A stretch of DNA of 48,180 bases from Alienimonas chondri (GTDB lineage Bacteria; Planctomycetota; Planctomycetia; Planctomycetales; Planctomycetaceae). Positions 3,780 to 40,406 of the stretch are shown here, in pieces (the first letter of the stretch is position 1; each line of letters begins with the position of its first letter). The stretch is taken from the NCBI RefSeq assembly GCF_013036045.1, contig NZ_WTPX01000021.1, forward strand, positions 1 through 48,180, read 5' to 3'. Below the pieces are notes generated by a model that worked only from the letters and a program-made list of their open reading frames with translations, was not told where the DNA came from and searched no databases. The translations under genes and the position numbers were made by a program.

Positions 3780-4709
3780 TCAGCCGAAGCGGCCGGTGAC
3801 GTAGCTGTTCGTTTCGTCCAGCTTGGGGTTGGTGAAGATCGCCTCGGTCGGGCCGTACTCCATCAGACGGCCGAGATACATGAACGCCGTGTACTCGCTG
3901 ATGCGGCTCGCCTGCTGCATGTTGTGGGTGACGATCAACACGCTGTACTCGCCCTTGAGCCGCTGAATCAGGTCTTCGACCTTCCCGGTGGCGATCGGGT
4001 CGAGGGCGCTGCATGGCTCGTCCAACAACAGAACTTCCGGCTCCGCGGCGATGGCGCGGGCGATGCACAGCCGCTGCTGCTGACCGCCGGACATGCCGAG
4101 GGCCGATTCCTGCAGGCGGTCCTTCACCTCGTCCCACAACGCGGCGCCGCGGAGGGAGCGCTCGCAGACCTCGTCCAGCACCCGGCGATCCCGTTCGCCG
4201 TCGATGCGGAGGGGATAGACGACGTTTTCGTAGATGCTCATCGGGAACGGGTTGGGCTTCTGAAAGACCATCCCCATCCGCTTGCGAAGCTCGATCACGT
4301 CCACGTCGCGGGCGTAGATGCTGTCGCCGTTGAGGGTCATATCGCCCTCGATCCGAACGATGTCTAATAAATCGTTCATGCGATTCACGCACCGTAACAG
4401 CGTGCTCTTGCCGCAACCGGACGGGCCGATCATGGCCGTGACCTGCCCCTTCGGCACGTCGAGGTTCACGTCGAACAGCGCCTGCTTCTCGCCGTACCAC
4501 AGTTTGAGGTTCTGCACCCGAAGCACATGCTCTTCGGTCGCCAGTTCCGGGTGCACTTCCGCGGGGATGACCTCCCCGCGGGAGATCGCGGCGAGTCGGT
4601 CCGAGGGCGGTTCCCTGGGCGGAGCGCCGGCCAGAATGACTTCATCACGGCCGCCCCCGGTCGAGCGGGCGGCACGGGCGTTCGGCGGGGCGAGCGGGTG
4701 GGCGACCAT
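3780..4709 (-). CDS. pstB: Phosphate ABC transporter ATPase PstB
   Basis: This is the cytoplasmic ATPase that powers phosphate import through PstCA. The 309-residue product has the Walker A motif GPSGCGKST, the Q-loop region [15 protein letters not shown], an ABC signature MSGGQQQR, Walker [14 protein letters not shown] and the switch His in VTHNMQQ, all with PstB-specific flanks. The N-terminal 60 residues are an Ala/Pro/Arg-rich extension before the usual PstB beginning ([14 protein letters not shown]), so a later start is possible, although the ATG at 4709 is the only obvious one. It is the last gene of a minus-strand pstSCAB operon, 51 bp after pstA. Unlike in Escherichia coli, phoU does not follow; it is about 18 kb away, next to phoB and phoR. 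Confidence 0.96.
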
Positions 4710-4760
4710 GAATTCTTTGGTAAGCGAGGGGCGTCCGCCCTCTGAAAGAGACAGGAGATT

Positions 4761-6593
4761 CTAAAACGATGCGGAGGTGAATCGGCGTCGCAATCGCGCC
4801 CGCAGCCACATGGCGGCGAGGTTCAACGTGGCGACCAGCGCAATCAACAGCAGCATCGTCGTGTAGACCATCGGCCGGGCGGCGTCTCCGTCCGGCGCCT
4901 GGAAGCCGAGGTCGTAGATATGAAAGCCCAGGTGCATGAAGCTGCGTGAGGGGTGCACGAACGGGGCTTCGAGGTCGACCGGCAGCGCCGGGGCGGTGTT
5001 CACGGCGCCGACCAACATCAACGGGGCGACCTCCCCCGCCCCGCGGGCCACCGCGAGGATCATTCCGGTCAGAATCCCCGGCAACGCCCGGGGCAGCACG
5101 ATCCGGCGGATCGTCTGCCATTTGCTCGCTCCGCAGGCGTAGCTGCCTTCCCGCATGCTGTTCGGCACCGCGGAGAGCGCTTCCTCCGTCGCCACGATCA
5201 CCACCGGCAGCGTCAGCAGGGCGAGGGTGAGACTCGCCCACAGCAGCCCGCCTTTGCCGAACGTCGGGTCCGGCAGGCGTTCGGCGTAGAACAGTTGGTC
5301 GACGCCGCCGCCGATCAGGTAGCAGAAGAACCCCAGCCCGAAGACGCCGAACACGATGCTCGGCACGCCGGCAAGGTTGTTCACCGCGACCCGCACGGCG
5401 CTGACGATCACCCCCTGCTTGGCGTATTCCCGCAGATACAACGCCGCGAGCACGCCGAACGGCACGACGAAGACGGTCATCACCAGCGTCATCGTGACCG
5501 TGCCCCAGATCGCCGGCCACACTCCGCCCGCCGTGCCGGCCTGTCGGGGCTCTTCGCTGAGGAACTCCCACCACCGCGACAGATACACGCCCAGCCGGCC
5601 CCACCAGGACAACGCGTTCGCCCGATAACCGCGGACGACCTCGGCGGTCTCGACCTCCACCTCCTGCCCGGAGGCGGTTCGCATGACGAGATACTCCGCG
5701 GCGTTCTCCGCGGACAGCTCGCTCATCGCCGCCAACCGCGGTGCGTCCTGAATGTCGTTTCTCCGTTCGAGCAGAACGTACTCTTCAATCGCTTCCCGCA
5801 GGTCCGCCGGCTTCTCGGCGAGTTCCGCTTCGAGCCGCGTTCGCTCCGAGGCGCTGAGGGCGGATTCGCTCAAGGCGCGGGCCAAGTCGCGGCCGTCGAC
5901 GCCCGTACGCATCTCCGCCGACCGCACCCGCAGTTCGGCTTCGCGGATCAGCACGCCGCCGGCGCCGCTTTCCTCCTCCAGTTCCTCCCGCCGCTCGTTG
6001 CGTTCGAGGGCGGCGGGGCGGAGCTTCTGAAACGCCTCCCAAGCCGCCTCCGGCCCCTCGTAGGTTTGCTCCGGCGTCACCAGACGGACCGGTTCGCCGA
6101 GGAACCGCCCCTGATCGGAACGTTCCAGTACCACCGCCCACGACGGCGTCGTCTTCGAGCCGGGTTGAACCTCGAACGCGTCGACGTAGGTGAACGTGGA
6201 GCCGCTCTCGCGGCGATTGTCGGTGCGGAGCAGTACGCGAACGGCTTCGATGGCGTCCTCGCCCTCCGGGAAGGCGGCGAGAGCGACCGGCCGGGCCTCG
6301 GCGGGCAACAACGGGACGGAGGCCCGCCGCAGTTCGTAGGTCTCCGTGCCGTACTCTTCGCCGAGCACGGCGGAGCCGTCCCGCAGCGTGACCCGCACCA
6401 ATTCGCCCGGCCAGAACGTGCCGATGCCGTTCCACAGGATCAGCGCCAGCAGTCCGCCGATCATCGCCAGACAGATCGCCAACGCGGCGCCGGAGAGCCA
6501 AACCGCCGGTTCTCCCCCCGCGACCACGCTGCGCGCCGGCCCGCCCCGCACGCGGCGGGCGGGAAGAGCGGCGGAGGTCGGGGAGTCAGTCAA
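4761..6593 (-). CDS. pstA: Phosphate ABC transporter permease PstA, extended form
   Basis: This is one of the two membrane subunits of the high-affinity phosphate importer. The C-terminal 260 residues form the standard PstA permease, with the EAA-like loop GASKWQTIRRIVLPRALPGILTGMILAVARGAGEVAPL contacting the ATPase. At 610 residues the protein is about twice the usual PstA length. After a first membrane helix (near residues 30-60) there is an inserted region of roughly 270 residues, including a Glu/Arg-rich stretch likely to form coiled coil (about 195-290), before the permease helices begin. Long PstA forms are also known in gammaproteobacteria, but the role of the insert is not established. 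It starts 66 bp after the end of pstC. Confidence 0.93.
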   Translation of the reverse strand: MTDSPTSAALPARRVRGGPARSVVAGGEPAVWLSGAALAICLAMIGGLLALILWNGIGTFWPGELVRVTLRDGSAVLGEEYGTETYELRRASVPLLPAEARPVALAAFPEGEDAIEAVRVLLRTDNRRESGSTFTYVDAFEVQPGSKTTPSWAVVLERSDQGRFLGEPVRLVTPEQTYEGPEAAWEAFQKLRPAALERNERREELEEESGAGGVLIREAELRVRSAEMRTGVDGRDLARALSESALSASERTRLEAELAEKPADLREAIEEYVLLERRNDIQDAPRLAAMSELSAENAAEYLVMRTASGQEVEVETAEVVRGYRANALSWWGRLGVYLSRWWEFLSEEPRQAGTAGGVWPAIWGTVTMTLVMTVFVVPFGVLAALYLREYAKQGVIVSAVRVAVNNLAGVPSIVFGVFGLGFFCYLIGGGVDQLFYAERLPDPTFGKGGLLWASLTLALLTLPVVIVATEEALSAVPNSMREGSYACGASKWQTIRRIVLPRALPGILTGMILAVARGAGEVAPLMLVGAVNTAPALPVDLEAPFVHPSRSFMHLGFHIYDLGFQAPDGDAARPMVYTTMLLLIALVATLNLAAMWLRARLRRRFTSASF

Positions 6594-25298: not shown

Positions 25299-27839
25299 AT
25301 GCGCCGTCCCTCGGCGTCGCCCCGCAGCCCCCGCCTCACAACCTGTTCTCCCGTGGCCCTGATAGGCTCCTCCGTTCGCCGGTTTGCGCCGGTCTCGCTC
25401 CTCGCTGTCGTGGCGGCGCTGTGCAGCGCCGCCGTCGGTCAGGCCGCGGACGAGACGCCCGCCCCCGCGGAGGTTCGCGCCTATCTGGAAGCGAACTGCG
25501 GCGACTGCCACGCGAACGGCAGCGCCGAGGGCGGGTTCGAACTCTCTTCTTTGCCCGATGACCCCACCCTGCAAGACGCCGGGCGGTGGGATCGCGTACA
25601 CGATCGCATCCGCGACGGCGAGATGCCGCCCCCCGATTACGACGAACTGAACCGGTCCGAAAAGCGGGAATTTCTTTCGGACGTCTCCCGTTGGCTCGCC
25701 GCCAAGCAGCATCGCGAGATCGCCGAGGCCGGCCGCTCGCGGGGCCGGCGGTTGACCGCTCTCCAATTGGAGCGGTCGCTGCAATCCGTGTTGGGCATCG
25801 ACACGCCGCTCTCGCACCTCCTCCCGCCGGATCGTCGCCATCACGGCTTCACCACGGTGACCGAGGGCGGTCTGAGCCATCACGATCTGGCCGCGCACCT
25901 CGAAGTCGTCGACGCGGCGCTGGACGAGGCGTTCGCACGCGCGCTCTCCTCTGACGAAACCTGGACGAAAGAGCTGTCCGCCAAGGATCTCGCCCGCAGA
26001 AATCCCCGGAGCCGCACCCGCGAGCCGGAACTGTTCAAGGAGATGGCGGTCACTTGGCAGACGCGGTTGGTCTACGTCGGCCGTCTGCCGGTCACGACCA
26101 GCAGGGACGGCGGCGGCTGGTATCGGTTCACGTTCGACGCTGAGGCCCTCAAGGCGCCGCCGGAGGGGCTGTGGTGCACGGTGCGGACGGGTCAGTTGAC
26201 CTCCAGCGCCCCGACGATGGCGGACGTCGGCACGTTCCTCGTCACGGACCAGCGGAAAACCTACGCCTTCGAGGCTTGGCTGCCGGAGGGCCACATGTTC
26301 GAGGTGCGGCCGAACGACCAACGCCTCAAACAGGGCTCGACGCCCGGCGGACAGGTCGGAGCCGGCGAAATGCAGCCTCAGAACGTCGCCGGGCTGGGGA
26401 TTCACCATGCCACCCTGACCCGCTTTCACCGTGGCCTGGACGACGCCAGCGTTCGCGAGCGTCTCTTCGGCGATGTGGAGGTGAATTGGGTCAAAAACCC
26501 CCGCCGCGGGCGCGGCGAGCCGGCCGGTTCGTTCCAGCCCCAGCCGCGGAATGCACGGGGGGCGATCGCTTCGCTAATGCGGGCCTTCGCCGATCGCGCG
26601 TTCCGTCGCCACGTTGATTCCGCCGCCCTCGCCCCGTACATCGCCGCGGCCCAGAACGATCTGGCCGGCGGGAAGTCCTTCACCGAGGCGCTGCGGGCCG
26701 GCTATCGGTCGCTGCTGTGCAGCCCGCGATTCCTGTATCACGTCGAGGAACCGGGCGAGTTGGACGGTCCGGCGCTGGCGTCGCGGCTCTCCTATTTCCT
26801 CACCGGCGCCCCGCCGGACGCCGAATTGACGACGCTCGGCGAGAGCGGCGAAATCCTCAAGGACGACGTGCTGCGGGAGCAGACTGAACGTCTGCTGACG
26901 CAGACCGCCGAAGAGAACGACCGCTACGGTGTGAACGGTCTCGACCGGTTCGTCGAGGACTTCGCCCACGAGTGGCTGGATCTCTCCGAACTGGACGCCA
27001 CGGAGGTGACGAACCTCTATCCGAACTGGGATCCCACGCTGCAGATCTCCATGCGGGACGAGGCGCACGCCCTGCTGCGGACGATGCTCGCGGACGACCT
27101 GTCGGTGACGCACGTGGTCGACGGGGACTTCGCCTTCGTCAACGAGCGGCTCGCCGATCAATACGACCTGCCGCTCGAACAGAAGCCCGAGGCGTGGCGG
27201 CAGGAAAACGACGGCCTCACCCGGGTGGACCTGCCGTCCGACAGCCCCCGGGGCGGATTGCTCACCCTGGGAGCGATCCTGAAGCTGACCGCCGACGGCG
27301 CCGCCACCAGCCCGGTGCTGCGGGGGGTGTGGGCCTCCGAGCGATTGCTCGGCATCACCGTGCCCCCGCCGCCGGAGAACGTGCCCGCCGTCGAGCCGGA
27401 CACCCGCGGCGCCCGCACGATCCGGGAACAGCTCGCCAAACACCGCGCCGATCCCAGCTGCGCGAGCTGCCATGTGAAGGTGGACCCGGTCGGTTTCGCC
27501 CTCGAATCCTTCGATCCCGCCGGCGCCTACCGCGACAGCTACATGGCCCGACGGAAAGGGAAGATCGTGCCCCGGGCGCCGATTGACCCGAGCTACGACA
27601 TGCCCGACGGCCGGTCGTTCGAGGACATCGTCGGTTTCCAACAGCTGGCCGCCGGTCAGCCGGACGACCTCGCGGCGAACCTCGCCCGGCACCTGCTGAC
27701 CTACGCGACCGGGGCGCCGCCCTCCTTCGCCGATCGGCGGGCGATCGACGACATCGTCTGGAAGTCCCGCGACGACGGCTTCGGCACGCGTTCCCTGCTG
27801 CACGCCTGCATTCAAAGCCCGCTGTTCCGCAGCAAGTAG
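25299..27839 (+). CDS. Secreted DUF1592/DUF1588/DUF1587/DUF1585 haem protein
   Basis: This is a planctomycete-type secreted c-type cytochrome of the DUF1592 group. A signal peptide (RFAPVSLLAVVAALCSAAVGQAA) precedes an N-terminal haem-binding motif CGDCH around residue 65, then DUF1587-like (LTALQLERSLQSVLGI), DUF1592-like (RFLYHVEEPGELDGPALASRLSYFL), DUF1588-like (SPVLRGVWASERLLG, with a second CASCH) and a DUF1585-like C-terminal domain (LARHLLTYATG). A GTG at 25353 would give a shorter signal peptide and is a possible true start. Such proteins are always paired with DUF1552 proteins, as here. Electron transfer in extracellular polymer oxidation is proposed for the family but not proven. 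Confidence 0.9.
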   Translation: MRRPSASPRSPRLTTCSPVALIGSSVRRFAPVSLLAVVAALCSAAVGQAADETPAPAEVRAYLEANCGDCHANGSAEGGFELSSLPDDPTLQDAGRWDRVHDRIRDGEMPPPDYDELNRSEKREFLSDVSRWLAAKQHREIAEAGRSRGRRLTALQLERSLQSVLGIDTPLSHLLPPDRRHHGFTTVTEGGLSHHDLAAHLEVVDAALDEAFARALSSDETWTKELSAKDLARRNPRSRTREPELFKEMAVTWQTRLVYVGRLPVTTSRDGGGWYRFTFDAEALKAPPEGLWCTVRTGQLTSSAPTMADVGTFLVTDQRKTYAFEAWLPEGHMFEVRPNDQRLKQGSTPGGQVGAGEMQPQNVAGLGIHHATLTRFHRGLDDASVRERLFGDVEVNWVKNPRRGRGEPAGSFQPQPRNARGAIASLMRAFADRAFRRHVDSAALAPYIAAAQNDLAGGKSFTEALRAGYRSLLCSPRFLYHVEEPGELDGPALASRLSYFLTGAPPDAELTTLGESGEILKDDVLREQTERLLTQTAEENDRYGVNGLDRFVEDFAHEWLDLSELDATEVTNLYPNWDPTLQISMRDEAHALLRTMLADDLSVTHVVDGDFAFVNERLADQYDLPLEQKPEAWRQENDGLTRVDLPSDSPRGGLLTLGAILKLTADGAATSPVLRGVWASERLLGITVPPPPENVPAVEPDTRGARTIREQLAKHRADPSCASCHVKVDPVGFALESFDPAGAYRDSYMARRKGKIVPRAPIDPSYDMPDGRSFEDIVGFQQLAAGQPDDLAANLARHLLTYATGAPPSFADRRAIDDIVWKSRDDGFGTRSLLHACIQSPLFRSK

Positions 27840-27911
27840 CCCCCGCACACGACCGCGGCCAGCCAACGGCTCGCCGCTCTCCCCCGCATTCCCCCTTCCG
27901 TTCACATCCGC

Positions 27912-29258
27912 ATGCCTGCTTTTCGCCCCGCCCGTCGTCCCGGCGACGCCCTGCCCCGCCGCACCATGTTGAGAGCGGCCGGGGTCGGCCTGGCCCTGCC
28001 GTGGCTCTCCGCGATGGACGGCCGTTCCTCCGCGGTCGCCGGCCCGCTCGATGAGACGCCCTTGGCGCCCGAGCTGCCGGAGATCGAGCAACAGGACGGC
28101 CCGCCCCGCCGGTTCGTCGCCTTCACGTTGAGTCTCGGCCTGCTGGGCGAGAACCTGTATCCGGAGCAGACCGGCAAGGATTGGAAGCCGTCCCGCTATC
28201 TCGAACCGCTGACGGACCTGCGTGACCAACTCACGCTGCTCAGCGGCGTTTCGCACCCCGGCGTCCGCAGCGGCCACCGGGCGGAAGCGAGCCTGCTGAC
28301 CGCTAACCCCGCCGGCGGCAACGGCCGCGGCCGGAACACGATCAGCCTCGATCAGTACCTCGCCAAGCACCTCGGTGCGACGACGCGGTTCCCGTCGCTG
28401 GTGTTGTCCGGCGGCGGTTCGAACAGTCCCTGCTACACCGACGGCGGGGCGATGATCCCGGCTCAGGAAAGCGTCGAGGAACTCTTCGCCGACCTGTTCC
28501 TCGAAGAAGATCCCGACGTCCGCCGGCTGCACACCGCCCGCGCCGCCCACGGCCGCAGCGTGATGGACCTCGTGCTGGATGACGCGAATCGCCTGAGCCG
28601 CGAGGTCGGCCCCGGCGACCGCCGCCGCCTGGACGAGTACTTCTCCGGCGTCCGCGACCTCGAGGTGCGGATGGCCGCGGACGAACGCTGGGCCAAAGCG
28701 AAGAAGCCGCAGGTCGACGTGGAGCCGCCGGACGAGATCCGCGACGCGAACGAGTTCATCGCCAAACAGTCGCTGATGGCCTCGGTCGTCAAGCTGGCGT
28801 TGGAGACGGACTCCACTCGCTACGTCACCCACCACATCGGCGGATCAAACCGCACCGCGCCATTGCCGGGGGTGAACACCGGCTGGCACAGCCTGTCACA
28901 CCACGGCAAGGACGAGAAGAAGCTGGAGCAGCTCGCGATCGTCGAGGGCGCCCTGATCGCCAGCTGGGCCGACTTCCTGCGGAGCCTGTCCGAAGTGAAG
29001 GAGTCCGGCCGCAGCCTGCTCGACAGCACCACCGTGCTGCTGACCTCGAACCTCGGCAATGCCTCGAACCACGACAACCGCAACATGCCCGTGCTGCTGG
29101 GCGGCGGCGGCTACAAGCACGCCGGGCACCTCGCTCACGACCGCAGCGACAACGCCCCGCTGCCGAAGCTGTTCACCACGATCGCCAACCGTCACGGCCT
29201 CGCGATCGACCGCTTCTTCGGCGAACCGGGTACGCAGAGCGGGCTGGAACTGGCGTAG
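27912..29258 (+). CDS. Tat-exported DUF1552 protein
   Basis: DUF1552 proteins are exported partners of DUF1592 haem proteins, related in fold to alkaline-phosphatase/sulfatase-like DUF1501 proteins. The 448-residue product has a Tat signal (LPRRTMLRAAGVGLALPWL), then family-typical segments: RRFVAFTLSLGLLGENLYP, SGVSHPGVRSGHRAEASLLT, YVTHHIGGSNRTAPLPG and the C-terminal LLTSNLGNASNHDNRNMPVLLGGG, with several His that could bind metal. It starts 72 bp after the haem-protein gene and is probably in the same operon. Its enzymatic activity is unknown. Confidence 0.92.
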   Translation: MPAFRPARRPGDALPRRTMLRAAGVGLALPWLSAMDGRSSAVAGPLDETPLAPELPEIEQQDGPPRRFVAFTLSLGLLGENLYPEQTGKDWKPSRYLEPLTDLRDQLTLLSGVSHPGVRSGHRAEASLLTANPAGGNGRGRNTISLDQYLAKHLGATTRFPSLVLSGGGSNSPCYTDGGAMIPAQESVEELFADLFLEEDPDVRRLHTARAAHGRSVMDLVLDDANRLSREVGPGDRRRLDEYFSGVRDLEVRMAADERWAKAKKPQVDVEPPDEIRDANEFIAKQSLMASVVKLALETDSTRYVTHHIGGSNRTAPLPGVNTGWHSLSHHGKDEKKLEQLAIVEGALIASWADFLRSLSEVKESGRSLLDSTTVLLTSNLGNASNHDNRNMPVLLGGGGYKHAGHLAHDRSDNAPLPKLFTTIANRHGLAIDRFFGEPGTQSGLELA

Positions 29259-29476: not shown

Positions 29477-32398
29477 CTACCGCCCCGGTACGTCGCCGCT
29501 TTGCCACGCTTTCTGCAGGAACGTGTCGATGCGTTCCATCGTGGGCGTGAACCACGGTTCCCAGTTCCATTCGCCGTGCAGGCCGCCGGTGAGGACGAAG
29601 GTGTCCACGGTCACGTCAAGGTTCGACAGCTTGTCACGCAGGCTGTCGAACGAATCGAGCGAGTTCTCCCCGATCAGCAGCATCGGCGGGGCGTCCGCGG
29701 TCGCCCAATGGGCCGGCGAGGCGGCGGCGTAGCGCTCCGGCATTTCGTCGAACGAGCCGCCGAGGAACAGCTGGTAGTTGGATCCCGGTTGCCGGGACTG
29801 CTCGACGGCCCGTTCGCCCTCGGTGTCCGTCGGGCCGGCGACGACCACGGCGGCCTGCACCTTCGCGGAGACGGCGTCAACGCCGATCTGTTCGTCGGCG
29901 GGCGGGTTCATCGTCGCCAACAGCGCGGCGAGGTGGGCACCGGCGGAGAAACCGACCGCGGCGATGCGATCGTCGTCATAGCCGTACTGGTCCGCATTGG
30001 ACCGCAGGAACTTCACCGCGTCCCGCACGTCGTCGATCGCCGCGGGGAACTTCGCGGTCCCGGAGAGTCGATAGTCGATCGACGCCACGGCATAGCCGCG
30101 TTCGGCGAGCCATAGGCCCTTGTTCCGCTCGCCGGCACGGTCGCCTTTCTTCCAGCCGCCGCCATGGATCAGCACGACGAGAGGCGGAGCCGTGCCGTCG
30201 TCCGTCGCTTTCGGCAGGTACAGATCGAGCGCCAGCTCGCCGGTGTCCCGCGTCGCGAAGGTCACGCCGTCCTTTACCGTGACGCCGTCCGCCGGTTCCA
30301 ACGCCGGACGCACCACCTCGTAGCCCATCGGGGCGAGGGTCGCCTTGAGCTCGCGAAAGTTCTGCGGCTTCTGGCCTTCCGGCAGGTTCGGCGGCATCCC
30401 CTCGGCCGCGCCGCCGGCCGCCGGGGCGTCCCCTTCCCGCATCGCGGCGCCGGCCGTGCTCGGTTCCAAGCCCTTCAGATAGGCGAGCAACTCGAAGATT
30501 TCGTCCTCGGTGAACCGGTCCAGCAGCGCCTTGGGCATGAGCGAGGTGTCCGACTGGATCATGTCGAGAATGTCATCCCGCTTGATCACGTCCGGCTGTT
30601 TCGCCTCCGGGTTCTCGAGGATCGAAACGGATTCCTCATCCTCCGCGACCACCAACCCGGTGAGAACGCGGCCTTCCAAGGTCACGAGCTGGCGGACGGC
30701 GTACTTCGGATCGACGTGGGCGCTGGGGTCCAGCATCTCCCGCAGCACGATCCTGCCGTCCCCCTTCCAGCGCTCAAACACGCCCACCAGCGACGGGCCG
30801 ACGAGGCTCGCGGTGGAATCGGAGCGGTGGCACTGGGCGCAGGTGGCTTCGGTGAAGATCCGCTGACCGATCTCCGGCGAACGGCCGGCGAGCTTCCGTT
30901 CGAGCGGGTCGCCGTCGGCGGGCAACAGATCGTCGACCGTCCACTTCTGCACGAACTCCCGCGTGTTGCCGATCGGGTCTTCCGGCACGGTCGGATTCGC
31001 GAGGTAGGCGTCGAGGTCCGGGACGACGACCATCACCCCGTACATCCGCATCCAGTGGCGGGGAAAGGTGCAGACGTAGGGGTACTCGCCCGGTTCGCTG
31101 GGGGCGGTGAAGGTGAGCCGGGAGGAGGCGTGGGCGTCGACCAGTTCCGTCGCGAACAACACGTCCTCACCGTCCGGGACGTACGGGTTGCCGGCCGATC
31201 CGCCCTCCGGGCCGACTTCCATCCCGCGGGCGGCGACGTCGCGCAACTGCCCCGGTGAGGTGACGACGAGGTTGTGCGGCATCAGGTCTTCGTTCTCCAG
31301 CAGCACCTGCACCGGGCGGCCGGCTTCGACGGCGAAGTAGGGGAGGTCGTAGCGCATCTCCTCCTCCACGGTTTTGATGCGGACGACCCGGACCACGACT
31401 TCCCGCAGCCGGCTCCGCAGCGCCTTCGCCTCGGCCACCGGCATCCGGGCGAACAGCCCGTCGGCCAACGACATCGCGTTCAGGAAGTCGTCGGTGGTGC
31501 GGTCGGCGGCGGGGGTGTTCTCCGCCAACTCGACCAGCGATTCGGCGAGCGTCGCGCTGACGCCCGGGTCGCGGTCCTCCGCGGGGACGGTCGCCAGCGT
31601 GCGGACGACCGTCGATCGCAGCGCCTCATCCCCCAGCAGCGGGGCGAGACGCAGGAAGGTGTCCGCTCGCTCCGTCGGGATCGAGGCGAGCGCGGCGATC
31701 GCGGCCCTCTTCACCGGCTGCGACGTGGACTCCAACAGCGCCACGACGTTCTCCCGCTGGGTGCCGCGGAACTCCGCCGTCGGCACGAGGGGGATCGCCG
31801 CGAGCCAGTCCCGCTGGCTTTCGAGCGTCGGCTTGGCGAGTTCCCACGCCGTTTCAAAGTCTCCGGCGGCGATCAGCCCGGCATACGCGGCGATGCGCTT
31901 CGGCCGGTTCTCCGCTTCGGTCGCGGCCTTCAACGCGTCCAGTTGCTCCGGGACGTACGCGGCCGGCTGTTGGAGCAGCAACGTCGTCAATTGGCTCGCG
32001 GCCCGGCGATCGCCGCGGTCCTCTTCGCCGAGCGGTTCGAGGACCCGCAAGATCTCGGTCACGGCCTCGGTGCCGTTCAGTTCGACCAACCCCGCCAGCG
32101 CCGCGGCCCGTTCTTTCGGGGAGACGCCGGGTCGGGTGAGGATCGCCTCGTACACCGGGGCGTACTTGGGATCGGTGGTCTCCCGTTCGACCAGCAAGAG
32201 CCGTGCGTCGTCCAGCCGTTTCAACTGGAACTCAACGATCCGCGGACTTTTATCGAGGAAAATCGTGGGCGGCTCCGGCTTCTCTGCCGGCGCCATCCCG
32301 GGCATCGCGTGATCGGCGTGGTCGCCGTGTTCATGCTGGGCAAATACGGGGGAGGCGGCGAGGCCCAGAAGCAGGGCAAAGGATAAGCAGCGAGACAT
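29477..32398 (-). CDS. Secreted HEAT-like / azurin-type copper / cytochrome c / alpha-beta-hydrolase fusion
   Basis: This 973-residue secreted protein joins modules rarely found together. A signal peptide (FALLLGLAASPVFA) is followed by a His/Met-rich stretch (HEHGDHADHAMPGM) and helical HEAT-like repeats (about 50-340). A cupredoxin domain (about 345-460) has all azurin-type ligands: His375 in MPHNLVV, Cys443, His448 and Met452, with azurin spacing C-x4-H-x3-M. A haem c domain follows (CAQCH at 520-524, possible axial Met621). The C-terminus (about 700-973) is an esterase/lipase of the BD-FAE type with HGGG at 745-748, nucleophile Ser818 in GFSAG and His941 in GGLHGEW. The ATG at 32398 fits the signal peptide. 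It lies downstream of the haem-less dehydrogenase gene and could accept its electrons. Confidence 0.88.
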   Translation of the reverse strand: MSRCLSFALLLGLAASPVFAQHEHGDHADHAMPGMAPAEKPEPPTIFLDKSPRIVEFQLKRLDDARLLLVERETTDPKYAPVYEAILTRPGVSPKERAAALAGLVELNGTEAVTEILRVLEPLGEEDRGDRRAASQLTTLLLQQPAAYVPEQLDALKAATEAENRPKRIAAYAGLIAAGDFETAWELAKPTLESQRDWLAAIPLVPTAEFRGTQRENVVALLESTSQPVKRAAIAALASIPTERADTFLRLAPLLGDEALRSTVVRTLATVPAEDRDPGVSATLAESLVELAENTPAADRTTDDFLNAMSLADGLFARMPVAEAKALRSRLREVVVRVVRIKTVEEEMRYDLPYFAVEAGRPVQVLLENEDLMPHNLVVTSPGQLRDVAARGMEVGPEGGSAGNPYVPDGEDVLFATELVDAHASSRLTFTAPSEPGEYPYVCTFPRHWMRMYGVMVVVPDLDAYLANPTVPEDPIGNTREFVQKWTVDDLLPADGDPLERKLAGRSPEIGQRIFTEATCAQCHRSDSTASLVGPSLVGVFERWKGDGRIVLREMLDPSAHVDPKYAVRQLVTLEGRVLTGLVVAEDEESVSILENPEAKQPDVIKRDDILDMIQSDTSLMPKALLDRFTEDEIFELLAYLKGLEPSTAGAAMREGDAPAAGGAAEGMPPNLPEGQKPQNFRELKATLAPMGYEVVRPALEPADGVTVKDGVTFATRDTGELALDLYLPKATDDGTAPPLVVLIHGGGWKKGDRAGERNKGLWLAERGYAVASIDYRLSGTAKFPAAIDDVRDAVKFLRSNADQYGYDDDRIAAVGFSAGAHLAALLATMNPPADEQIGVDAVSAKVQAAVVVAGPTDTEGERAVEQSRQPGSNYQLFLGGSFDEMPERYAAASPAHWATADAPPMLLIGENSLDSFDSLRDKLSNLDVTVDTFVLTGGLHGEWNWEPWFTPTMERIDTFLQKAWQSGDVPGR

Positions 32399-32441: not shown

Positions 32442-32473
32442 TAACGCGGAGGCCCCGCGGGGCCTCCGCGTTA
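32442..32473 (-). terminator. Perfect 32-bp palindrome, terminator of the dehydrogenase gene
   Basis: Bases 32442-32457 are exactly complementary to 32458-32473 (arms begin TAACGCGGAGG). On the minus strand the hairpin is followed by TCTTTTG, a short T-run, 26 bp past the stop codon of the dehydrogenase gene, which suits an intrinsic terminator between it and the fusion gene downstream. Confidence 0.75.
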
Positions 32474-32498: not shown

Positions 32499-35219
32499 TT
32501 ATTCCAAGGCCCGGAGCGTTTCTTCCAACGTGTAGTTCAGGAACGTGTCCGGGTCTTCGTTCGACTCCAACACGCCGAGCGCCAGTTCGAGGGCTTCGTC
32601 CCCCTCCATGTAGCTCAACGCCCGGAGGGCCTCGGCCTGCACGCGGGGATGCTCGTCCGCGATCCGCGGGGCGAGCAGGTCCAGCGGAGCGTCGACCTCA
32701 TCCAACCAGAACGACAGCACCCGCACCGCGGCGGCCCGAGCGTGGTAGTCGTCGGCGTTCAGGAGTTCCTTCAACAGCGACTCGTTGACCTTTTGATGAG
32801 TCTGGTACTGCCAGAGGGCTTCGAGGCCGTGGTGGGTGAAGTTCTCGTCCTTCGGATCGAGAGCGTTCAGCCAGACGTCGACCGCGGCTAATACCTCGGC
32901 GCTGTCCCGGGCGGCAAGCTGCCGGCGGGCCATGTAGCGAGTCCGCAGCTCGGGAGCTTTCAACAGATCCAGCAGCGCCGGGATCGGTTCGCCGTCGATC
33001 TTGGGAGCCTTCACCAGCGGGCGATCCGGGTAGGTGACCCGCCAGACGCGACCGTGGGACTTATCGCGGTTGGGATCGCGGAGGTTGTGCTGCAGGTGGC
33101 CGATCAGAGCGTTGTGCCAGTCGACGATGTACAGCGAACCGTCCGGGGCGAACTGCATATCGATCGGGCGGAAGTTCCCGTCGCCGCCGGAGATCAGCAT
33201 CGGCCGCTCGGTCGCGGTGAACCCGGTGCCGTCCTCCTGCATGTCGTAGTGCAACAGGGCGCGGTCGCCGATGACGTTCGTCACCAGATAGTCGCCCTGC
33301 ACGTCCTCCGGGAAATGCCGGCTGGAGATGAGTTCGATCCCCGCAGACGGCCGGATCCGCTTCTTAAAGAACGGCGGATACGGGCGGTTCGGGTCGAGTT
33401 TCATCTCCTTGACGACGCGGTTCATCTGCGAGCCGCCGGGGTGCTTCTGCGGCCATTCGATCCGACCGGAGATCGGCGTGCCCCAGTAGTTTTCGCCGGG
33501 GGAGGCGTCGCCGATGAATTCCTGTCCCCACTTATCGAAGACATGCCCCCACGGGTTCGCGAAGGCGAAGGAGGTGTGCACGTCCACCGCTTCGGTGCGG
33601 GGGTTGTACCGCCAGATGCCCGCTTCGCTGAGCCGGTCCAGACCGTAGGGGTCTTCGACCTGGCTCATCTTGAAGGTGCCCTCCTGGAAGTAGAGATTCC
33701 CGCCCGGTCCCCACTCGAACGCGGCGATGCCGTGGTGGCTGTCGGCGGTGCCCAAGCCGGAGATCTGGCGAACGCGAACGTCCTTGCCGCCTTCGGTGAA
33801 CTCGCGGGAGACGTCGATGTGGTCGTCGCCGTCCGTGTCCTTGAGGAACAGGATGTCCGGCTGCTGGGCGACATAGACGCCGCCCATGCCGAACTCGAAG
33901 CCGGTCGGCTGATGCAACCCGCCGGCGAAGGTCACGCAGCGGTCGGTTTTGCCGTCGCCGTCGTCGTCTTCCAGGATCAGCAGCTTGTCGTCGAGCTCCG
34001 TTTTGGGCTTCCAGTGCGGATAGGACGGCATGACGGCGACCCACAGCCGCCCCTTATCGTCGAAGTTCAACGCCACCGGGTTCGCCAGTTCGGGGAATTG
34101 CTCCTCCGAGGCGACCAGTTCGACTTTGTAACCCGGCGCCAAATCGAACGTCTCAAGCTGCACCTGAGCGCTGGAATACTCGAGCGAGCCCAGCTTGCCG
34201 CGTTTGCGGTTCGGGTCGTCGTCGCCGCCGACGTTCGACTTGGGATTCAGGAACGGCAGCGTGTCGGAGTCGTCCACCTCGTCGGGGACGCTTTCGCCGG
34301 AGGCCACGGCCCAGACGCGTTCGTCGCGGTTGGCGCTCATCTGGTCGAGAATGGCCAACTCGCGGTTCATCACGTCGCGGTTGTTATAGGTGCCGTCCGA
34401 CCCCGCGTTGCCGCGCGGTCCCCAGATCGAATAGCCGTTGACGGCCCGATAGCGGTGCCACCAATGAAAGTTTTTATCGTTCAGTTCCGCGATGACCGCG
34501 GGGTTCGGCTCGCTCGGTCCGCCCTCGCCGAACAGGCCTTCCTGAAGGATCGGGGCGAGCGCCGCATACCCGGCCGCGTTCAGATAGGCGCCGTTCTTCG
34601 TCAACCGTTCGTCGCTTTGCTCGAAGAGCCGCAGCGTCGGACGGAACAGATCGACGAAGCCGACGTCCGTCGCTTCCGCAACGGCCTTCAGGCCGTCCGT
34701 GTACATTTCCAAACGTTGATTATGCGCCTTGCCGGTCGGAAGGTGCGGCTCGCCGGTGACCTCAAACGCGATCGGCGAGACCAGCACGATCCGCGGGGCG
34801 CCGTCGCCGCTGTAGTTCTTGGTCTTCGTCTCCTCGACCAGCCGGGTCATATCCGACTTAAAGTCTTCAAGACCCTCTTCTCCGGCGAACGATTCGTTGT
34901 AACCGAAGAAATAGAGAATCACGTCCGCTTCGACGTGCGTCAGGTGATCGTCCGGCGAGCCGAAGTCGCGGGTGCGGATGCGAGTGAACGGCTCGTCGCC
35001 GGGGAAGGCGAGGTTCCGAACGACCAGTTCCCGGTCCGCGAACCGCTGATGCAACAGCGCTTCCCACTCGTTGTGGTGCTGCAATCCCTCCGCGAGGGCG
35101 TTGCCGACCAGGGCGATATGGTCGTCGGCCTTTGGTTCTAACTCCGCCGCGTCGGCGGAGGTCAGCGAGACGGGTAGTACGCAGGCGAGCAGCGCCAGCG
35201 GGGATGTACGAATCATCAT
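32499..35219 (-). CDS. PVC-type membrane-bound dehydrogenase with degenerate SGNH domain
   Basis: The 906-residue secreted product has a signal peptide (PLALLACVLPVSLTSADA), an SGNH/GDSL-like domain (about 30-235), a six-bladed propeller of the planctomycete membrane-bound dehydrogenase type (about 355-720: LWVAVMPSYPHWKP, ILEDDDGDGKTDRCVTFAGGL, LKDTDGDDHIDVSREF), and C-terminal HEAT repeats (about 730-906). The SGNH block I reads VGNALAEG, where a catalytic enzyme has GDS, and the block V His is missing (NGAYLNAAGY), so this domain is probably non-catalytic. The usual C-terminal haem c is absent; the next gene downstream supplies HEAT-like, copper and haem domains. Sugar or alcohol oxidation is inferred from the propeller family. 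Confidence 0.88.
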   Translation of the reverse strand: MMIRTSPLALLACVLPVSLTSADAAELEPKADDHIALVGNALAEGLQHHNEWEALLHQRFADRELVVRNLAFPGDEPFTRIRTRDFGSPDDHLTHVEADVILYFFGYNESFAGEEGLEDFKSDMTRLVEETKTKNYSGDGAPRIVLVSPIAFEVTGEPHLPTGKAHNQRLEMYTDGLKAVAEATDVGFVDLFRPTLRLFEQSDERLTKNGAYLNAAGYAALAPILQEGLFGEGGPSEPNPAVIAELNDKNFHWWHRYRAVNGYSIWGPRGNAGSDGTYNNRDVMNRELAILDQMSANRDERVWAVASGESVPDEVDDSDTLPFLNPKSNVGGDDDPNRKRGKLGSLEYSSAQVQLETFDLAPGYKVELVASEEQFPELANPVALNFDDKGRLWVAVMPSYPHWKPKTELDDKLLILEDDDGDGKTDRCVTFAGGLHQPTGFEFGMGGVYVAQQPDILFLKDTDGDDHIDVSREFTEGGKDVRVRQISGLGTADSHHGIAAFEWGPGGNLYFQEGTFKMSQVEDPYGLDRLSEAGIWRYNPRTEAVDVHTSFAFANPWGHVFDKWGQEFIGDASPGENYWGTPISGRIEWPQKHPGGSQMNRVVKEMKLDPNRPYPPFFKKRIRPSAGIELISSRHFPEDVQGDYLVTNVIGDRALLHYDMQEDGTGFTATERPMLISGGDGNFRPIDMQFAPDGSLYIVDWHNALIGHLQHNLRDPNRDKSHGRVWRVTYPDRPLVKAPKIDGEPIPALLDLLKAPELRTRYMARRQLAARDSAEVLAAVDVWLNALDPKDENFTHHGLEALWQYQTHQKVNESLLKELLNADDYHARAAAVRVLSFWLDEVDAPLDLLAPRIADEHPRVQAEALRALSYMEGDEALELALGVLESNEDPDTFLNYTLEETLRALE

Positions 35220-35352: not shown

Positions 35353-36414
35353 TCAGTCCGTCTTCGCGTCGCCGGCGGGCGGGATCGGCGTGTCCCAGCC
35401 GGCCATGTCCGACGGTTTGACGCCTTTCACATGGCCGCCGAATCGGAACGTGTTCGGTTGATACGGCCCGACCAGCGACACGTTCATGTCCGGTTCGATC
35501 TTCTCCTCCAGCCCCGCGGCCCAGAAGCAGGCGTTGACCAGCATGCGGCGGAAGCCGTCGTTGCGGAGATCCTCGGAGGCGCCGTACGTTGTCGTGAACA
35601 CGCGACGAGACCCCGGATTCGAATCGGCCGGCCCCCAGGGGAGTTCGTACGTCCGGACCCAGGCCCCCGGCGCCGGTTCCTTGTCTTCCGCGGGCGGAGA
35701 GTCCGGCGTCATGCCCTGCAACGGCTGGGCGAAGGCCAACGTCGTGCTGTTCGGCATCGGGTCGGCCCAGTAGCCGCCGGCCTCGACCCACGGGTTCTTC
35801 ACGCCGCGCAGGATGGGGTGATCGAGTTGCTCCTCATTCAGATCGAGCCGGGTGCTCATCACGTGGTTCTTGCCGTAGTGCCCCGCCCAGGTCTCGCCGA
35901 GGATCTGACGCCCGAATCCGCCTTCGTAGCCCTGCTCCTTCGACTGGAAGCTGTACCGGCCGTACCCGCTGTCGCCGGACATCTTGAAGGCGTGCGTCGC
36001 CGTCCGCAGACCGACGACCGGCCCGCCGCGGCGGAGGTAGAGGTCGATGTGCCGCATCTGATCGTCCGGCAGATTTTTGAATCGCAGGAAGTTGACCATC
36101 AGGTCCGCGTCCTTCAGCGCCTCCAGCCCCGGGATGTCGTCCGCCGCCGGATCGATCTCCCCTTTTTTGTTCTGGCTGAACAGCACCGTGCAATCAAAGC
36201 CGTGCCGCTTCGCGAGGATCCGGGCGAGGGCAGGGACCGTTTCTTCGGAGCGATACTCGTGGTCGCCCGCGATCAGCACGACCTTCGTGCCGGCGCCCGG
36301 TCCTTCTTCGCCTTTGTAAACGAGCGGCCCGTCCGCGGCGGACGTCGTTGCGGAACTAACCGTGAGGGCGACGCCGAACGTGAGGACGGCGGCGAGAATC
36401 GGGAGCGGCTTCAT
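35353..36414 (-). CDS. Secreted ThuA-domain protein
   Basis: ThuA-like proteins have a class-I glutamine amidotransferase-like fold and are tied to sugar (trehalose) utilisation. The 353-residue product has a signal peptide (MKPLPILAAVLTFGVALTVSSATTSA), the ThuA start VVLIAGDHEYRSEETVPALARIL, the domain core LRRGGPVVGLRTATHAF, and a metal- or substrate-site-like ETWAGHYGKNH. The same frame runs open to 37515, but that part is antisense to the haem-protein gene, so the ATG at 36414, directly before the signal peptide, is the start. It is upstream of the dehydrogenase gene on the same strand (133 bp gap) and probably in the same functional unit. Confidence 0.9.
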   Translation of the reverse strand: MKPLPILAAVLTFGVALTVSSATTSAADGPLVYKGEEGPGAGTKVVLIAGDHEYRSEETVPALARILAKRHGFDCTVLFSQNKKGEIDPAADDIPGLEALKDADLMVNFLRFKNLPDDQMRHIDLYLRRGGPVVGLRTATHAFKMSGDSGYGRYSFQSKEQGYEGGFGRQILGETWAGHYGKNHVMSTRLDLNEEQLDHPILRGVKNPWVEAGGYWADPMPNSTTLAFAQPLQGMTPDSPPAEDKEPAPGAWVRTYELPWGPADSNPGSRRVFTTTYGASEDLRNDGFRRMLVNACFWAAGLEEKIEPDMNVSLVGPYQPNTFRFGGHVKGVKPSDMAGWDTPIPPAGDAKTD

Positions 36415-36564
36415 GAGGACTCGTCCGGGACGCGATGGAATCGGAGAATCCCAACGCATCGCCGGACCAAACGCCAGCGTCGACGGACTGACGGTGTTCT
36501 CTCGACGGACCATCGCATAGGCTGAATCCGATTCATCCTCAGCGAGCCTTCCCCTTTGCCGCCC

Positions 36565-36568
36565 GGAG
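36565..36568 (+). promoter_or_regulatory. Ribosome binding site deciding the start at 36574
   Basis: GGAG, five bases before the GTG at 36574, supports that GTG over the TTG at 36556 as the start of the second DUF1592-type gene. Confidence 0.55.
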
Positions 36569-36573
36569 TCCGC

Positions 36574-39042
36574 GTGACGTATCGCCCCGCATCGACGGCG
36601 CTTGTCGCGGCGCTCTGCGGAGCGCTGGCCTCGATCGCTTCCGCGACCGAACCGGATGAATCCTCGACGACGGCGGACCCGGTCGCGGGGCTGCTGACGG
36701 CCTCTTGCCTCGACTGTCACGCCGGCGACTCGGCGGAGGCGGGGTTTGATCTGGCGTCGCTCGACGCCCGCTCCCCGGCGACGCAGGCCGCAGCGTGGGA
36801 AAAGGTCGTCCGCAAGCTGCGCACCCGGCAGATGCCGCCGGCGAACGCCTATTTCGACGACGAACCGCTCCGCGACGCCGCGCTCGCGCGGCTTGAACTG
36901 GCCCTCGATCAGCACGCCGCGGAGTTCCCCAGTCCCGGCCGTACGGCGACGTTCCGCCGGCTCACCCGGACGGAGTACGCCAACGCGGTGCGCGATCTGC
37001 TGGGGGTGAAAGTCGATGCTTCCCTCTGGCTGCCGAAGGACGAATCGAGCCACGGGTTCGACAACGTGACCGTCGGCGACCTCTCGCCGACCCGCATGGA
37101 CCGCTACGTCACCGCCGCCCGGTCGATCGCGCGGCAGGCGTTGGGGCGACCGGGCCGCGGGCCGTCGGGTCGCACGGTGCGTCTGCGGCCGGACCTCACC
37201 CAGGAGAACCACCTCGACGGCCTCCCGCTGGGCACGCGGGGCGGAGCGCTCCTCTCCCACCACTTCCCACGGACCGGCGACTACGAGATTCGCGTTCGGC
37301 TGATGCGCGATCGTAATGAGGAAGTCGAAGGGCTGAGGGGCCGCCACGAACTCGACCTGCTGCTCGACCGCGCCCCGATCGCCCGGTTCGAAGTCAAACC
37401 GCCGCGACGCGGCAAGGCCGGCGACGGCGGGGGCGACGACGGCTGGGAGGCCGCCACCCACGCGGACGTCGACCTGCACCTCGCGAAGCGGGTGAACGTG
37501 ACCGCCGGTTCGCACGAGGTGGGCGTCGCGTTCCTCAAGGACGACGCTTCATTGGTCGAGACGGCCCGCCAACCCCACGAGGCCCGCTTCAACTTCTACC
37601 GCCATCCCCGCCGCACGCCGGCGGTGTATGAGGTGACGATCACCGGCCCCTACGGCGATCCGGCGGCGGATTCCTCGCCGGGCGACTCGCCGAGCCGCGA
37701 ACGCATCCTCACCCACACGCCGGACGGTCCCGAGCAATGGGCTGGGTCTACGCACGCGATTCTCGCCCCATTGCTGCGTCGGGCGTATCGACGGCCGATC
37801 ACGCCCGACGATCTCGCCAAGCCGCTCGCGCTGTTCGAAGCCGGGGCAGCGGTTGAGGGAAGCGACGCGGAGCGGTTTGAGGCGGGGATCGAACTGGCCC
37901 TCGCCGGCGTGCTGGTGAACCCCAACTTCCTGTTTCGCGTCGAACGCGACCCCGTCGATCTGCCGCCCGCGACCGCCTATGCGGTGGACGACGTCACGCT
38001 GGCGTCGCGGCTATCGTTCTTCCTCTGGAGCGCCCCGCCGGACGACGAATTGCTGACGCTCGCGGAGCAGGACAAATTGGGCGACCCGGCGACGGTGGAC
38101 GCCCAGGTCCGCCGCATGCTGGCCGATCCGCGGGCCGCGGCGCTCGCGACGAACTTCGCCGGGCAGTGGCTGCACCTGCGGAATCTGGAGGGCATCACGC
38201 CGGACATGCGGGCGTTCCCGGACTTCGACGACAACCTCCGCACCGCGTTTCGCCGCGAGACCGAACTGCTGTTTGCGGAGATGGTCGAGGAGAACCTCCC
38301 GGTCACCCACCTGATCGCCCCCGGGCATGCCTGGCTGAACGAACGCCTCGCCGCCCACTACGGGATCCCGCACGTCCGCGGGAGCCATTTTCGCCGGGTG
38401 AACCTGCGTCGGGTCGATCTCGGAGCCGACCCGGCCCGTGGCGGTCTGCTGCGGCATGGCAGCGTGCTGACGGTCACCTCCTACGCGACCCGCACCAGCC
38501 CGGTGCTGCGGGGGAAGTGGGTATTGGAGAACCTCCTCGGCACCCCGCCCAAGCCGCCGCCGGACGATATCCCGGCTCTCGAAGAGAACACCGTCGCCGC
38601 GGGTCTGTCGGTCCGCGATCGCCTCTCCGCTCACCGGGCGCACGCGGCGTGCGCCTCCTGCCATGACCTGATCGACCCGCTGGGATTCGCCTTCGAGAAC
38701 TACGACGCCGTCGGTCGCTTTCGGACGTTGGAGGACGAACTCCCGGTCGACCCGAGCGGCGCCTTCCCCGGCGGGGGGGAGTTGTCCGGCGTCGCCGATC
38801 TGGAGCGGGAACTGCTCGCCCGGCCGGACCTGTTCGTCACGACCCTGACCGAAAAACTGCTGACGTATGCTTTAGGTCGCGGCCTCGATCACCGCGACGC
38901 CCCCGCCGTCCGCGGCATCGTGCGACGGGCCGCGGAGGACGATTATCGGTTTGCCTCCCTGATCGCCGCAATCGTCGACAGCCCGCCGTTCCGTCAACGG
39001 ACCGCGGCGCCGCCCGTCTCTCTCTCGGAGAACTCGAAATGA
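36574..39042 (+). CDS. Secreted DUF1592/DUF1588/DUF1587/DUF1585 haem protein (second copy)
   Basis: This is a paralogue of the gene at 25299-27839. From the GTG at 36574 the signal peptide is short (ASTALVAALCGALASIASA). The haem motif CLDCH comes next, then the DUF1587 domain (RRLTRTEYANAVRDLLGV), a carbohydrate-binding-like beta insert (about 190-350), DUF1592 (LVNPNFLFRVERDP, LASRLSFFLWSAPPDDELL), DUF1588 (VLRGKWVLENLLGTPP) with CASCHDLIDPLGFAFENYD, and DUF1585 at the end. It is closer to the family consensus than the first copy. Its TGA overlaps the ATG of the DUF1552 gene, so the two are translationally coupled. It is probably a periplasmic or surface electron-transfer protein. Confidence 0.93.
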   Translation: MTYRPASTALVAALCGALASIASATEPDESSTTADPVAGLLTASCLDCHAGDSAEAGFDLASLDARSPATQAAAWEKVVRKLRTRQMPPANAYFDDEPLRDAALARLELALDQHAAEFPSPGRTATFRRLTRTEYANAVRDLLGVKVDASLWLPKDESSHGFDNVTVGDLSPTRMDRYVTAARSIARQALGRPGRGPSGRTVRLRPDLTQENHLDGLPLGTRGGALLSHHFPRTGDYEIRVRLMRDRNEEVEGLRGRHELDLLLDRAPIARFEVKPPRRGKAGDGGGDDGWEAATHADVDLHLAKRVNVTAGSHEVGVAFLKDDASLVETARQPHEARFNFYRHPRRTPAVYEVTITGPYGDPAADSSPGDSPSRERILTHTPDGPEQWAGSTHAILAPLLRRAYRRPITPDDLAKPLALFEAGAAVEGSDAERFEAGIELALAGVLVNPNFLFRVERDPVDLPPATAYAVDDVTLASRLSFFLWSAPPDDELLTLAEQDKLGDPATVDAQVRRMLADPRAAALATNFAGQWLHLRNLEGITPDMRAFPDFDDNLRTAFRRETELLFAEMVEENLPVTHLIAPGHAWLNERLAAHYGIPHVRGSHFRRVNLRRVDLGADPARGGLLRHGSVLTVTSYATRTSPVLRGKWVLENLLGTPPKPPPDDIPALEENTVAAGLSVRDRLSAHRAHAACASCHDLIDPLGFAFENYDAVGRFRTLEDELPVDPSGAFPGGGELSGVADLERELLARPDLFVTTLTEKLLTYALGRGLDHRDAPAVRGIVRRAAEDDYRFASLIAAIVDSPPFRQRTAAPPVSLSENSK

Positions 39043-40406
39043 GCTTCGTCCCCCGTCGCGCCCTGCCGCGTCGCACCTTCCTGCGGGGAGCCGGCGCCGC
39101 CCTGTCGCTGCCGTTGCTCGATGCGATGGTGCCGGCGCTGACCGCCGTCGAACGCACGCCCGCCGCCCCGGCGAAGCTGCGGCGGCTGGGTTACGTCTAC
39201 ATGCCGATGGGCTGCGCCCCGGAGGCGTGGAAGCCCGCCGGGGGACTGACGCCCGGCGGCGATCCGCTGGGCGCCCTGCCCTCGACGCTCGAACCGCTGG
39301 AGGCCGTCAAGGACCGCGTCACGGCGATCGGCAACCTCGAACTTCGCAACGCTTACCCCGGCACACACGCCACCAGCAACGCCGCGTTCCTCTCCGCGGC
39401 GAAGGCCAAGCGGACCGAGTCCGCCGACTATCACCTCGGCACGACGGCGGATCAGATCGCGGCCCGTCAGCTCGGCGTCGACACGCGGTTGCCGTCGTTG
39501 GAGTTGGCGATGGATCTGATGTCGATGGTCGGCCAGTGCGACAACGGCTACGCCTGCGTCTATCAGAACAACCTCGCCTGGTCCTCGCCGACCACCCCGC
39601 TGCCCGCGGAGGCCCACCCGCGGTTGGTGTTTGAAACGCTGTTCGGCGAGGGCGGCACGCCGGCCCAGCGACGGGCCGATCTGTCGAATCGAGCCAGCCT
39701 GCTGGACAGCGTCACCGACGAGTTCGCCCGGCTCTCCCGCACCCTCGGCGCCGCGGATCGCACGCGGGTCAGCGGCTATCTGGAGAGCGTCCGCGAAGTC
39801 GAACGACGCATTCAGCAAGCGGAGGCCGAGACCCGCGACAACCCCCTGCCCGACCTCGATCGCCCCGTCGGCGTGCCCGCGAAGTACGCGGATCACGCCA
39901 AACTGATGTTCGACCTGCAGGCGTTGGCGCTGCGGGGCGACATCACCCGCGTCGTCACCTTCCAACTCGCCCGCGAGACCAGCAATCGGACCTATCCGGA
40001 GGTGGGCGTCGACGATCCGCACCACCCGCTCACCCACCACGGCAACGACCCGGCCAAGGTGGCGAAGGTCGCCAAGATCAACCGCTTCCACGTCGGCCTG
40101 TTCGCGGACTTCCTGAAGACGCTGCGAGACACCCCCGAAGCCGGCGGGAGCCTGCTCGATCATTCGCTGTACCTGTACGGCAGCGGGATGGGGAACCCGA
40201 ACGTCCACGACCACGTCGATCTGCCGATCCTCGTCGCCGGCGGCGCCGCCGGGAACATGCGCGGCGGCCGACACATCCGCTACGCCGAGCCGACGCCGTT
40301 GGCGAACCTGCACCTCACGCTGCTGAACAAGGTGGGCGTGAATCAATCCGCCTTCGCCGACAGCGACGGCGAGGTCGCCGACCTGTTCGATCCGCTGGGG
40401 GTGTGA
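39039..40406 (+). CDS. Tat-exported DUF1552 protein (second copy)
   Basis: This is the partner of the DUF1592-type gene that overlaps it by four bases. The 455-residue product has a Tat signal (LPRRTFLRGAGAALSLPLLDAM), the family start RLGYVYMPMGCAPEAWKPAGG, GTHATSNAAFLSAAKAKR, the conserved CDNGYACVYQNNLAWSSP and C-terminal YGSGMGNPNVHDHVDLPILVAGG. It differs from the first copy at 27912-29258, so the two pairs are old paralogues rather than a recent duplication. It is followed with almost no gap by an ankyrin gene. Confidence 0.94.
   Translation: MSFVPRRALPRRTFLRGAGAALSLPLLDAMVPALTAVERTPAAPAKLRRLGYVYMPMGCAPEAWKPAGGLTPGGDPLGALPSTLEPLEAVKDRVTAIGNLELRNAYPGTHATSNAAFLSAAKAKRTESADYHLGTTADQIAARQLGVDTRLPSLELAMDLMSMVGQCDNGYACVYQNNLAWSSPTTPLPAEAHPRLVFETLFGEGGTPAQRRADLSNRASLLDSVTDEFARLSRTLGAADRTRVSGYLESVREVERRIQQAEAETRDNPLPDLDRPVGVPAKYADHAKLMFDLQALALRGDITRVVTFQLARETSNRTYPEVGVDDPHHPLTHHGNDPAKVAKVAKINRFHVGLFADFLKTLRDTPEAGGSLLDHSLYLYGSGMGNPNVHDHVDLPILVAGGAAGNMRGGRHIRYAEPTPLANLHLTLLNKVGVNQSAFADSDGEVADLFDPLGV

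Follow-up and report, generated by a model that had tools for sequence, protein, structure and literature searches.

Why would a single secreted protein carry a copper site, a haem site and an esterase? The question is raised by a gene of Alienimonas chondri that occupies positions 29477..32398 on the minus strand of the window, that is, of the whole 48,180-nucleotide stretch of DNA analysed here. It forms an uninterrupted open frame encoding 973 amino acids followed by a stop codon; the plus strand of the same interval is interrupted by stops. The original prediction had read from this frame one secreted protein made of HEAT-like helices, an azurin-type copper site, a cytochrome c and an esterase, and this four-module layout is borne out by the profile searches, which were run on the full protein, the AlphaFold2 models and the signal peptide, all of which agree. 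We hypothesize, with a probability of about 0.6, that the protein serves a PVC-type (TIGR02604) dehydrogenase as electron-transfer subunit, with a once-separate partner esterase joined to it, and that the system would act on an acylated, probably sulfated algal glycan.

Modules of the fusion protein

The signal peptide (residues 1-20, MSRCLSFALLLGLAASPVFA; 32339..32398, minus strand, as for all features of this gene), read from the sequence, has a hydrophobic core and a typical signal-peptidase end without a lipobox Cys. It is followed by a His/Met-rich mature N-terminus (residues 22-35, HEHGDHADHAMPGM; 32294..32335), recognized in the alignment of relatives, in which His22 is present in 43 of 52 proteins and His24 in 47 of 52, and which has a mean of 3.1 His per 32 residues, where 0.46 would be expected. 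The His-rich character that had been pointed out for this stretch is thus conserved among relatives, and it fits a putative role in copper capture. The next module (residues 52-332; 31403..32245) is an all-helical solenoid in the AlphaFold2 model, extending from about residue 52 to 332 with pLDDT values mostly above 90, and Foldseek searches with it lead to repeat solenoids. The helical part of the prediction therefore stands, while its assignment to HEAT repeats is less secure, since the profile search of the 973-aa protein gave a weak HEAT_2 (PF13646) match at residues 219-288 that lies below the cut-off (18.0 versus 27.7 bits). In the same model the solenoid is followed by a beta domain (337-459), a cytochrome region reaching to about residue 643 and a break in confidence at residues 650-679, where pLDDT falls below 50. 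At the fusion point, this break covers a linker rich in Ala, Gly and Glu (residues 650-676; 30371..30451), delimited by pLDDT, by conservation and by the fact that relatives end here. The full-length model was used for residues 1-650 only, and the esterase was modelled separately from its own alignment.

The beta domain (residues 337-460; 31019..31390) belongs to the plastocyanin/azurin superfamily, with a Copper-bind (PF00127) match at residues 341-458 of 32.8 bits against a cut-off of 21.2. The azurin equivalog TIGR02695 is not reached (33.4 versus 105.1 bits), and on fold comparison the domain is closest to auracyanin (Foldseek: 6kol, 35% identity, TM 0.82; 2aan, TM 0.87). Hence, the predicted type-1 copper site holds with its four ligands, but the site is nearer to auracyanin than to azurin. 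The cupredoxin fold, the four type-1 ligands and up to 35% identity are shared with the auracyanins 6kol and 2aan, from which the Alienimonas domain differs in being one of several domains of a secreted protein from an organism that is not phototrophic. Azurin-like cupredoxins inside large dehydrogenase proteins are abundant in Planctomycetes. A published survey describes azurin as practically absent from this group, with one suspected contaminant (PMC8779525).

The cytochrome c domain (residues 496-645; 30464..30913) is a member of the TIGR02603 haem family, with a match at residues 511-642 of 71.6 bits against a cut-off of 68.15 and a CxxCH motif, and Foldseek relates it to the diheme cytochrome c Kustd1711 of Kuenenia. 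Conservation of the metal ligands was counted over 52 aligned homologues, and every homologue having the column keeps all copper and haem ligands: the copper ligand His375 (31274..31276) is present in 51 with one gap, Cys443, His448 and Met452 (CTFPRHWMRM; 31043..31072) in 52 of 52, as are both Cys and the His of the haem-binding CAQCH (residues 520-524; 30827..30841), and Met621 (30536..30538), which is the likely distal haem ligand, in 51 with one gap. The residue numbers originally given for the copper ligands are correct. A ResB cytochrome c maturation protein is encoded in the genome.

Residues 677-973 (29480..30370) form a BD-FAE esterase module, with a PF20434 match at residues 724-909 of 161.1 bits against a cut-off of 26.8. 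Its separate model is an alpha/beta-hydrolase (pLDDT 75.7) that superimposes on the lipase 6nkf_B (VIA Z 27.3, rmsd 3.0 over 255 residues) and on 6tkx (Z 26.1). The oxyanion motif HGGG (residues 745-748), the nucleophile Ser818 (GFSAG; 29945..29947) and the catalytic His941 (GLHGEW; 29576..29578) are invariant across ten members of the esterase clade, in line with the claim that the hydrolase motifs are intact. The claim left out the catalytic acid, however, which is away from its usual position: after beta7 the module has GENSLD instead of GExD/GxxD, with an invariant Glu911 and with Asp, Glu or Ser at position 915 in the clade. Glu911 (29666..29668), at which the core strand 245-250 of the esterase model terminates, is a candidate for this role, the usual acid being either displaced or replaced. 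The altered motif means that the esterase might be weak or changed in activity. Known BD-FAE carbohydrate esterases (PF20434; 6nkf Lip_vut4, the gut carbohydrate esterases 6tkx/6xyc, Thermogutta Est2 and the GH43-CE protein 6mly) have the fold (Z 25-27), HGGG, GxSAG and the final His in common with the Alienimonas module, which in contrast is only 22-28% identical to them, has a changed acid motif and is joined to an electron carrier.

A partner dehydrogenase and its relatives

No TIGR02604 dehydrogenase-type domain was found in the profile search of the 973-aa fusion protein, so that any oxidation would have to be carried out by a separate, neighbouring dehydrogenase. Such a gene lies directly upstream on the same strand (32499..35219, minus strand) and is adjacent in most relatives. 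According to the profiles, it encodes 906 aa comprising an SGNH/GDSL domain, a TIGR02604/DUF7133 dehydrogenase-type domain (TIGR02604, 217 bits, cut-off 122.2) and C-terminal HEAT repeats. Block I of the SGNH domain reads GNA or GNE, never Ser, in all 37 aligned relatives; the domain is therefore probably a dead hydrolase in the partner, which suggests that it may be a pseudo-hydrolase or binding domain in PVC-type dehydrogenases of this clade. With no serine nucleophile in the partner, the fused module would be the sole active esterase of the complex. Further upstream lies a gene for a secreted ThuA-domain protein (PF06283 profile; 35353..36414, minus strand), giving the order ThuA, dehydrogenase, fusion, and a ThuA gene also adjoins the system at other loci (L038, L102/L039 and L088). 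The cluster is flanked by two genes for PSD/PSCyt planctomycete cytochromes (25353-29258 and 36556-40406), each followed by a DUF1552 gene. In a profile search directed at the PQQ cofactor, in which the controls also gave no signal, no PqqE above the cut-off and no PqqC were detected, and no solved structure related to the TIGR02604 dehydrogenase domain was found.

Read together, the partner and the fusion gene amount to an ordinary fused PVC-type dehydrogenase plus an esterase. The usual form of this enzyme (TIGR02604 Piru_Ver_Nterm + TIGR02603) is a single fused protein of about 1500-1800 aa with the order GDSL, dehydrogenase, HEAT, cupredoxin and cytochrome c. The two Alienimonas genes contain all of these modules in the same order and with conserved ligands, and differ in being split in two and in having an active-looking BD-FAE module at the C-terminus of the second. 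A split two-gene form, with the same break in the HEAT region, is also found in other planctomycetes, among them Pan216, Fuerstiella and Mariniblastus MAGs, where the second gene is about 42-58% identical over residues 1-645; unlike in Alienimonas, it ends right past the cytochrome, and an esterase is absent from the gene and from the flanks examined. At the KatS3mg111 locus (L084 2223-4947) the GDSL and dehydrogenase parts lie in separate overlapping frames (2223-3257 and 3139-4947); either the system is split once more here or a sequencing error has shifted the frame.

A scan of GTDB contigs, resting on six short peptide patterns and possibly omitting genomes near the window, returned 50 ORFs from other genomes with the copper and cytochrome parts: the esterase is missing from all of them, the dehydrogenase is joined on in four and encoded by its own ORF at the locus in 35, and all those uncut by a contig end terminate just past the cytochrome. 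The family genomes show the same pattern of a copper-haem part without esterase, with 84 of 150 matching the HEAT-copper-haem part at E<=1e-60, and the more distant members are mostly single open frames of about 1650-1750 aa. Azurin-cytochrome fusions are thus common in planctomycete dehydrogenases, as had been stated at the outset, and TIGR02604/TIGR02603 proteins have tens of candidate places per planctomycete genome. For the cytochrome-esterase half, no spanning match was obtained outside Alienimonas in samples of 397 genomes of the class and 392 of the phylum at strict E-values. Similarly, tblastn searches with the esterase over the neighbourhoods of the relatives returned nothing except A. 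californiensis and Planctomycetales bacterium 10988, and since the other two-subunit relatives lack a nearby esterase of this clade, the system can do without it. In the copper-haem tree, the two Alienimonas rows group together with full support, placed among rows with split genes. The fusion is a variant, specific to this genus, of a planctomycete system that is itself known and common, and our literature searches, limited to open-licence papers, returned no description of its architecture.

Conservation of the fusion in two species

A. californiensis (G007), whose genome is closed in a single contig, encodes a full-length copy of the fusion that is 78% identical across residues 8-972, and the two sequenced Alienimonas species share the same fusion junction. 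Between the two, dN/dS (Nei-Gojobori, own script) is 0.13 for the copper domain, 0.19 for the cytochrome, 0.29 for the esterase and 0.39 for the solenoid, placing every folded module at 0.13-0.39, and 0.58 for the linker, of which residues 651-676 are 46% identical. Because of this second copy and these ratios in the folded modules, the observation is confirmed: the fusion is real and is maintained by selection, and it is not a decaying accident. A frameshift or assembly artefact joining two genes was considered and is ruled out by the closed second genome, the lack of an internal stop and the purifying selection in every module. An accidental event of either kind would agree with the restriction of the fusion to two species in everything searched, but set against the shared junction and the other evidence just given it has a negligible probability. 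The motifs do lie in one intact frame, as predicted. The question whether the module order recurs in other genomes has a mixed answer: it is present in A. californiensis and confined to Alienimonas in everything searched, so that an accidental fusion is answered by conservation in a sister species and not by wide distribution.

Esterase relatives and proposed function

Relatives of the esterase offer clues to its origin and substrate. In Planctomycetales bacterium 10988 (L088), a dehydrogenase-copper-cytochrome gene, a ThuA gene, a free esterase 49% identical to the fused module and sulfatase genes lie on one strand. The parts found in Alienimonas (dehydrogenase, cupredoxin, cytochrome, ThuA and an esterase of the same clade) are hence neighbours in this cluster as well; in contrast to Alienimonas, the dehydrogenase is fused to the copper-haem part, and the esterase is free and has its own signal peptide. 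The fused esterase begins like a mature free esterase (MPPNLPEGQKPQNFRELKATLAPMG versus LPPNFEGKPPKNFRELGERLKPMG) without a signal peptide. The simplest explanation would be that genes for ThuA, dehydrogenase, copper-cytochrome and esterase were neighbours in an ancestor and that the last two were joined via a new Ala/Gly-rich linker; since 10988 is not the sister of Alienimonas in the tree, two independent associations are also possible. In free clade members from marine MAGs (L108, L111, L112), the esterase gene lies no more than about 10 bases behind a sulfatase gene of the same orientation. Genes for a GH16 laminarinase-like protein, an AraC regulator and a sulfate permease are close by at L111, and L108 is also near a GH16-like gene. 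A free esterase of the clade at another locus (L105) lies by a PSD1/PSCyt cytochrome gene. This gene context suggests that the substrate of the esterase may be an acylated, sulfated glycan.

Under the preferred reading, the neighbouring periplasmic or secreted dehydrogenase would oxidize a sugar-type substrate, and electrons would pass from it to the type-1 copper, on to haem c and then to an outside acceptor. The helical solenoid could dock the dehydrogenase subunit, which itself has HEAT repeats at its C-terminal end, and the esterase would strip acyl groups from the same glycan, enabling its oxidation or degradation. The original prediction had gone further in proposing one protein that both removes ester groups from a polysaccharide and accepts electrons from its oxidation. 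Of this, the coupling finds indirect support in the neighbouring genes of 10988, whereas the protein itself contains no recognized dehydrogenase domain and the polysaccharide is deduced from gene context. In the strongest version of this idea, one secreted complex would remove acyl groups from a sulfated algal glycan and immediately oxidize the freed hydroxyl, with electrons leaving via copper and haem; we regard this as tentative and rather unlikely.

Two other functional readings have to be weighed against this one. The two halves of the chain may perform unrelated tasks, with the electron-transfer half serving the dehydrogenase and the esterase riding along as a general secreted hydrolase, on the premise that BD-FAE modules are often C-terminal on secreted planctomycete proteins. 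With partners read from the sequence rather than by profile except at L053, such modules are found on sulfatases (L053, L120, L122), SMP-30-like propellers (L121, L124, L125) and another hydrolase (L118), and the linker is long, disordered and fast-evolving. Against this, the fused esterase falls in a small clade apart from the sulfatase-fused type (43% identity, compared with 49% to 10988), and in 10988 a member of this clade neighbours the same dehydrogenase and ThuA genes; we regard unrelated jobs as doubtful. Less probable still is that the module serves in binding or docking, as the partner SGNH domain appears to do. Its acid is off the canonical position, with residue 915 varying between Asp, Glu and Ser, and the loss of the nucleophile in the partner is a precedent for dead hydrolase domains in the system. 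A docking role is nevertheless hard to reconcile with the invariance of HGGG, Ser818, His941 and also of Glu911, which sits at the end of the strand normally preceding the acid, and with free relatives that adjoin sulfatases, as in degradative loci. Apparent sulfatase-BD-FAE fusions (L120, L122) and propeller-esterase fusions (L121, L124, L125) belong to other planctomycetes, and A. chondri itself encodes a 909-aa sulfatase with a C-terminal BD-FAE module (G000:C57:27869-30598; L053 2870-5599).

Conservation of a gene fusion strongly suggests that the joined parts share a function, and the present fusion links an esterase to a dehydrogenase family common in planctomycetes, hinting at what that family acts on. 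We know of no established substrate for any TIGR02604 protein. Together, the fusion, the separate genes in 10988 and the sulfatase-adjacent free esterases point to acylated, sulfated algal glycans as a candidate substrate class, in agreement with the isolation of A. chondri from a biofilm on the red alga Chondrus crispus (PMC8541047). A. californiensis is from a kelp forest in Monterey Bay, according to the title of a reference cited in PMC7734314. If the coupled complex were true, hydrolysis and respiration of a polysaccharide would take place on one scaffold, and acylated, sulfated glycans would be a substrate class of TIGR02604 dehydrogenases. The protein is compact and has built-in spectroscopic reporters (blue copper and haem c), which would be useful for substrate finding.

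The dehydrogenase and fusion genes are separated by a perfect palindrome followed by TCTTTT (32442..32473, minus strand), a possible terminator. A hairpin with a compensatory change is found at the same spot in A. californiensis and could end or attenuate transcription; with this hairpin between the genes in both species, their co-transcription is not assured. A near-perfect, G+C-rich palindrome, CGCNGAGGCCCCGCGGGGCCTCNGCG, has 38 copies genome-wide whose substitutions are symmetric and compensatory, compared with 0 in a control read backwards. By their look, the members of this family, the one at 32442..32473 included, are repeated terminators or REP-like hairpins, and one is also seen at about 7297-7330 of L038.
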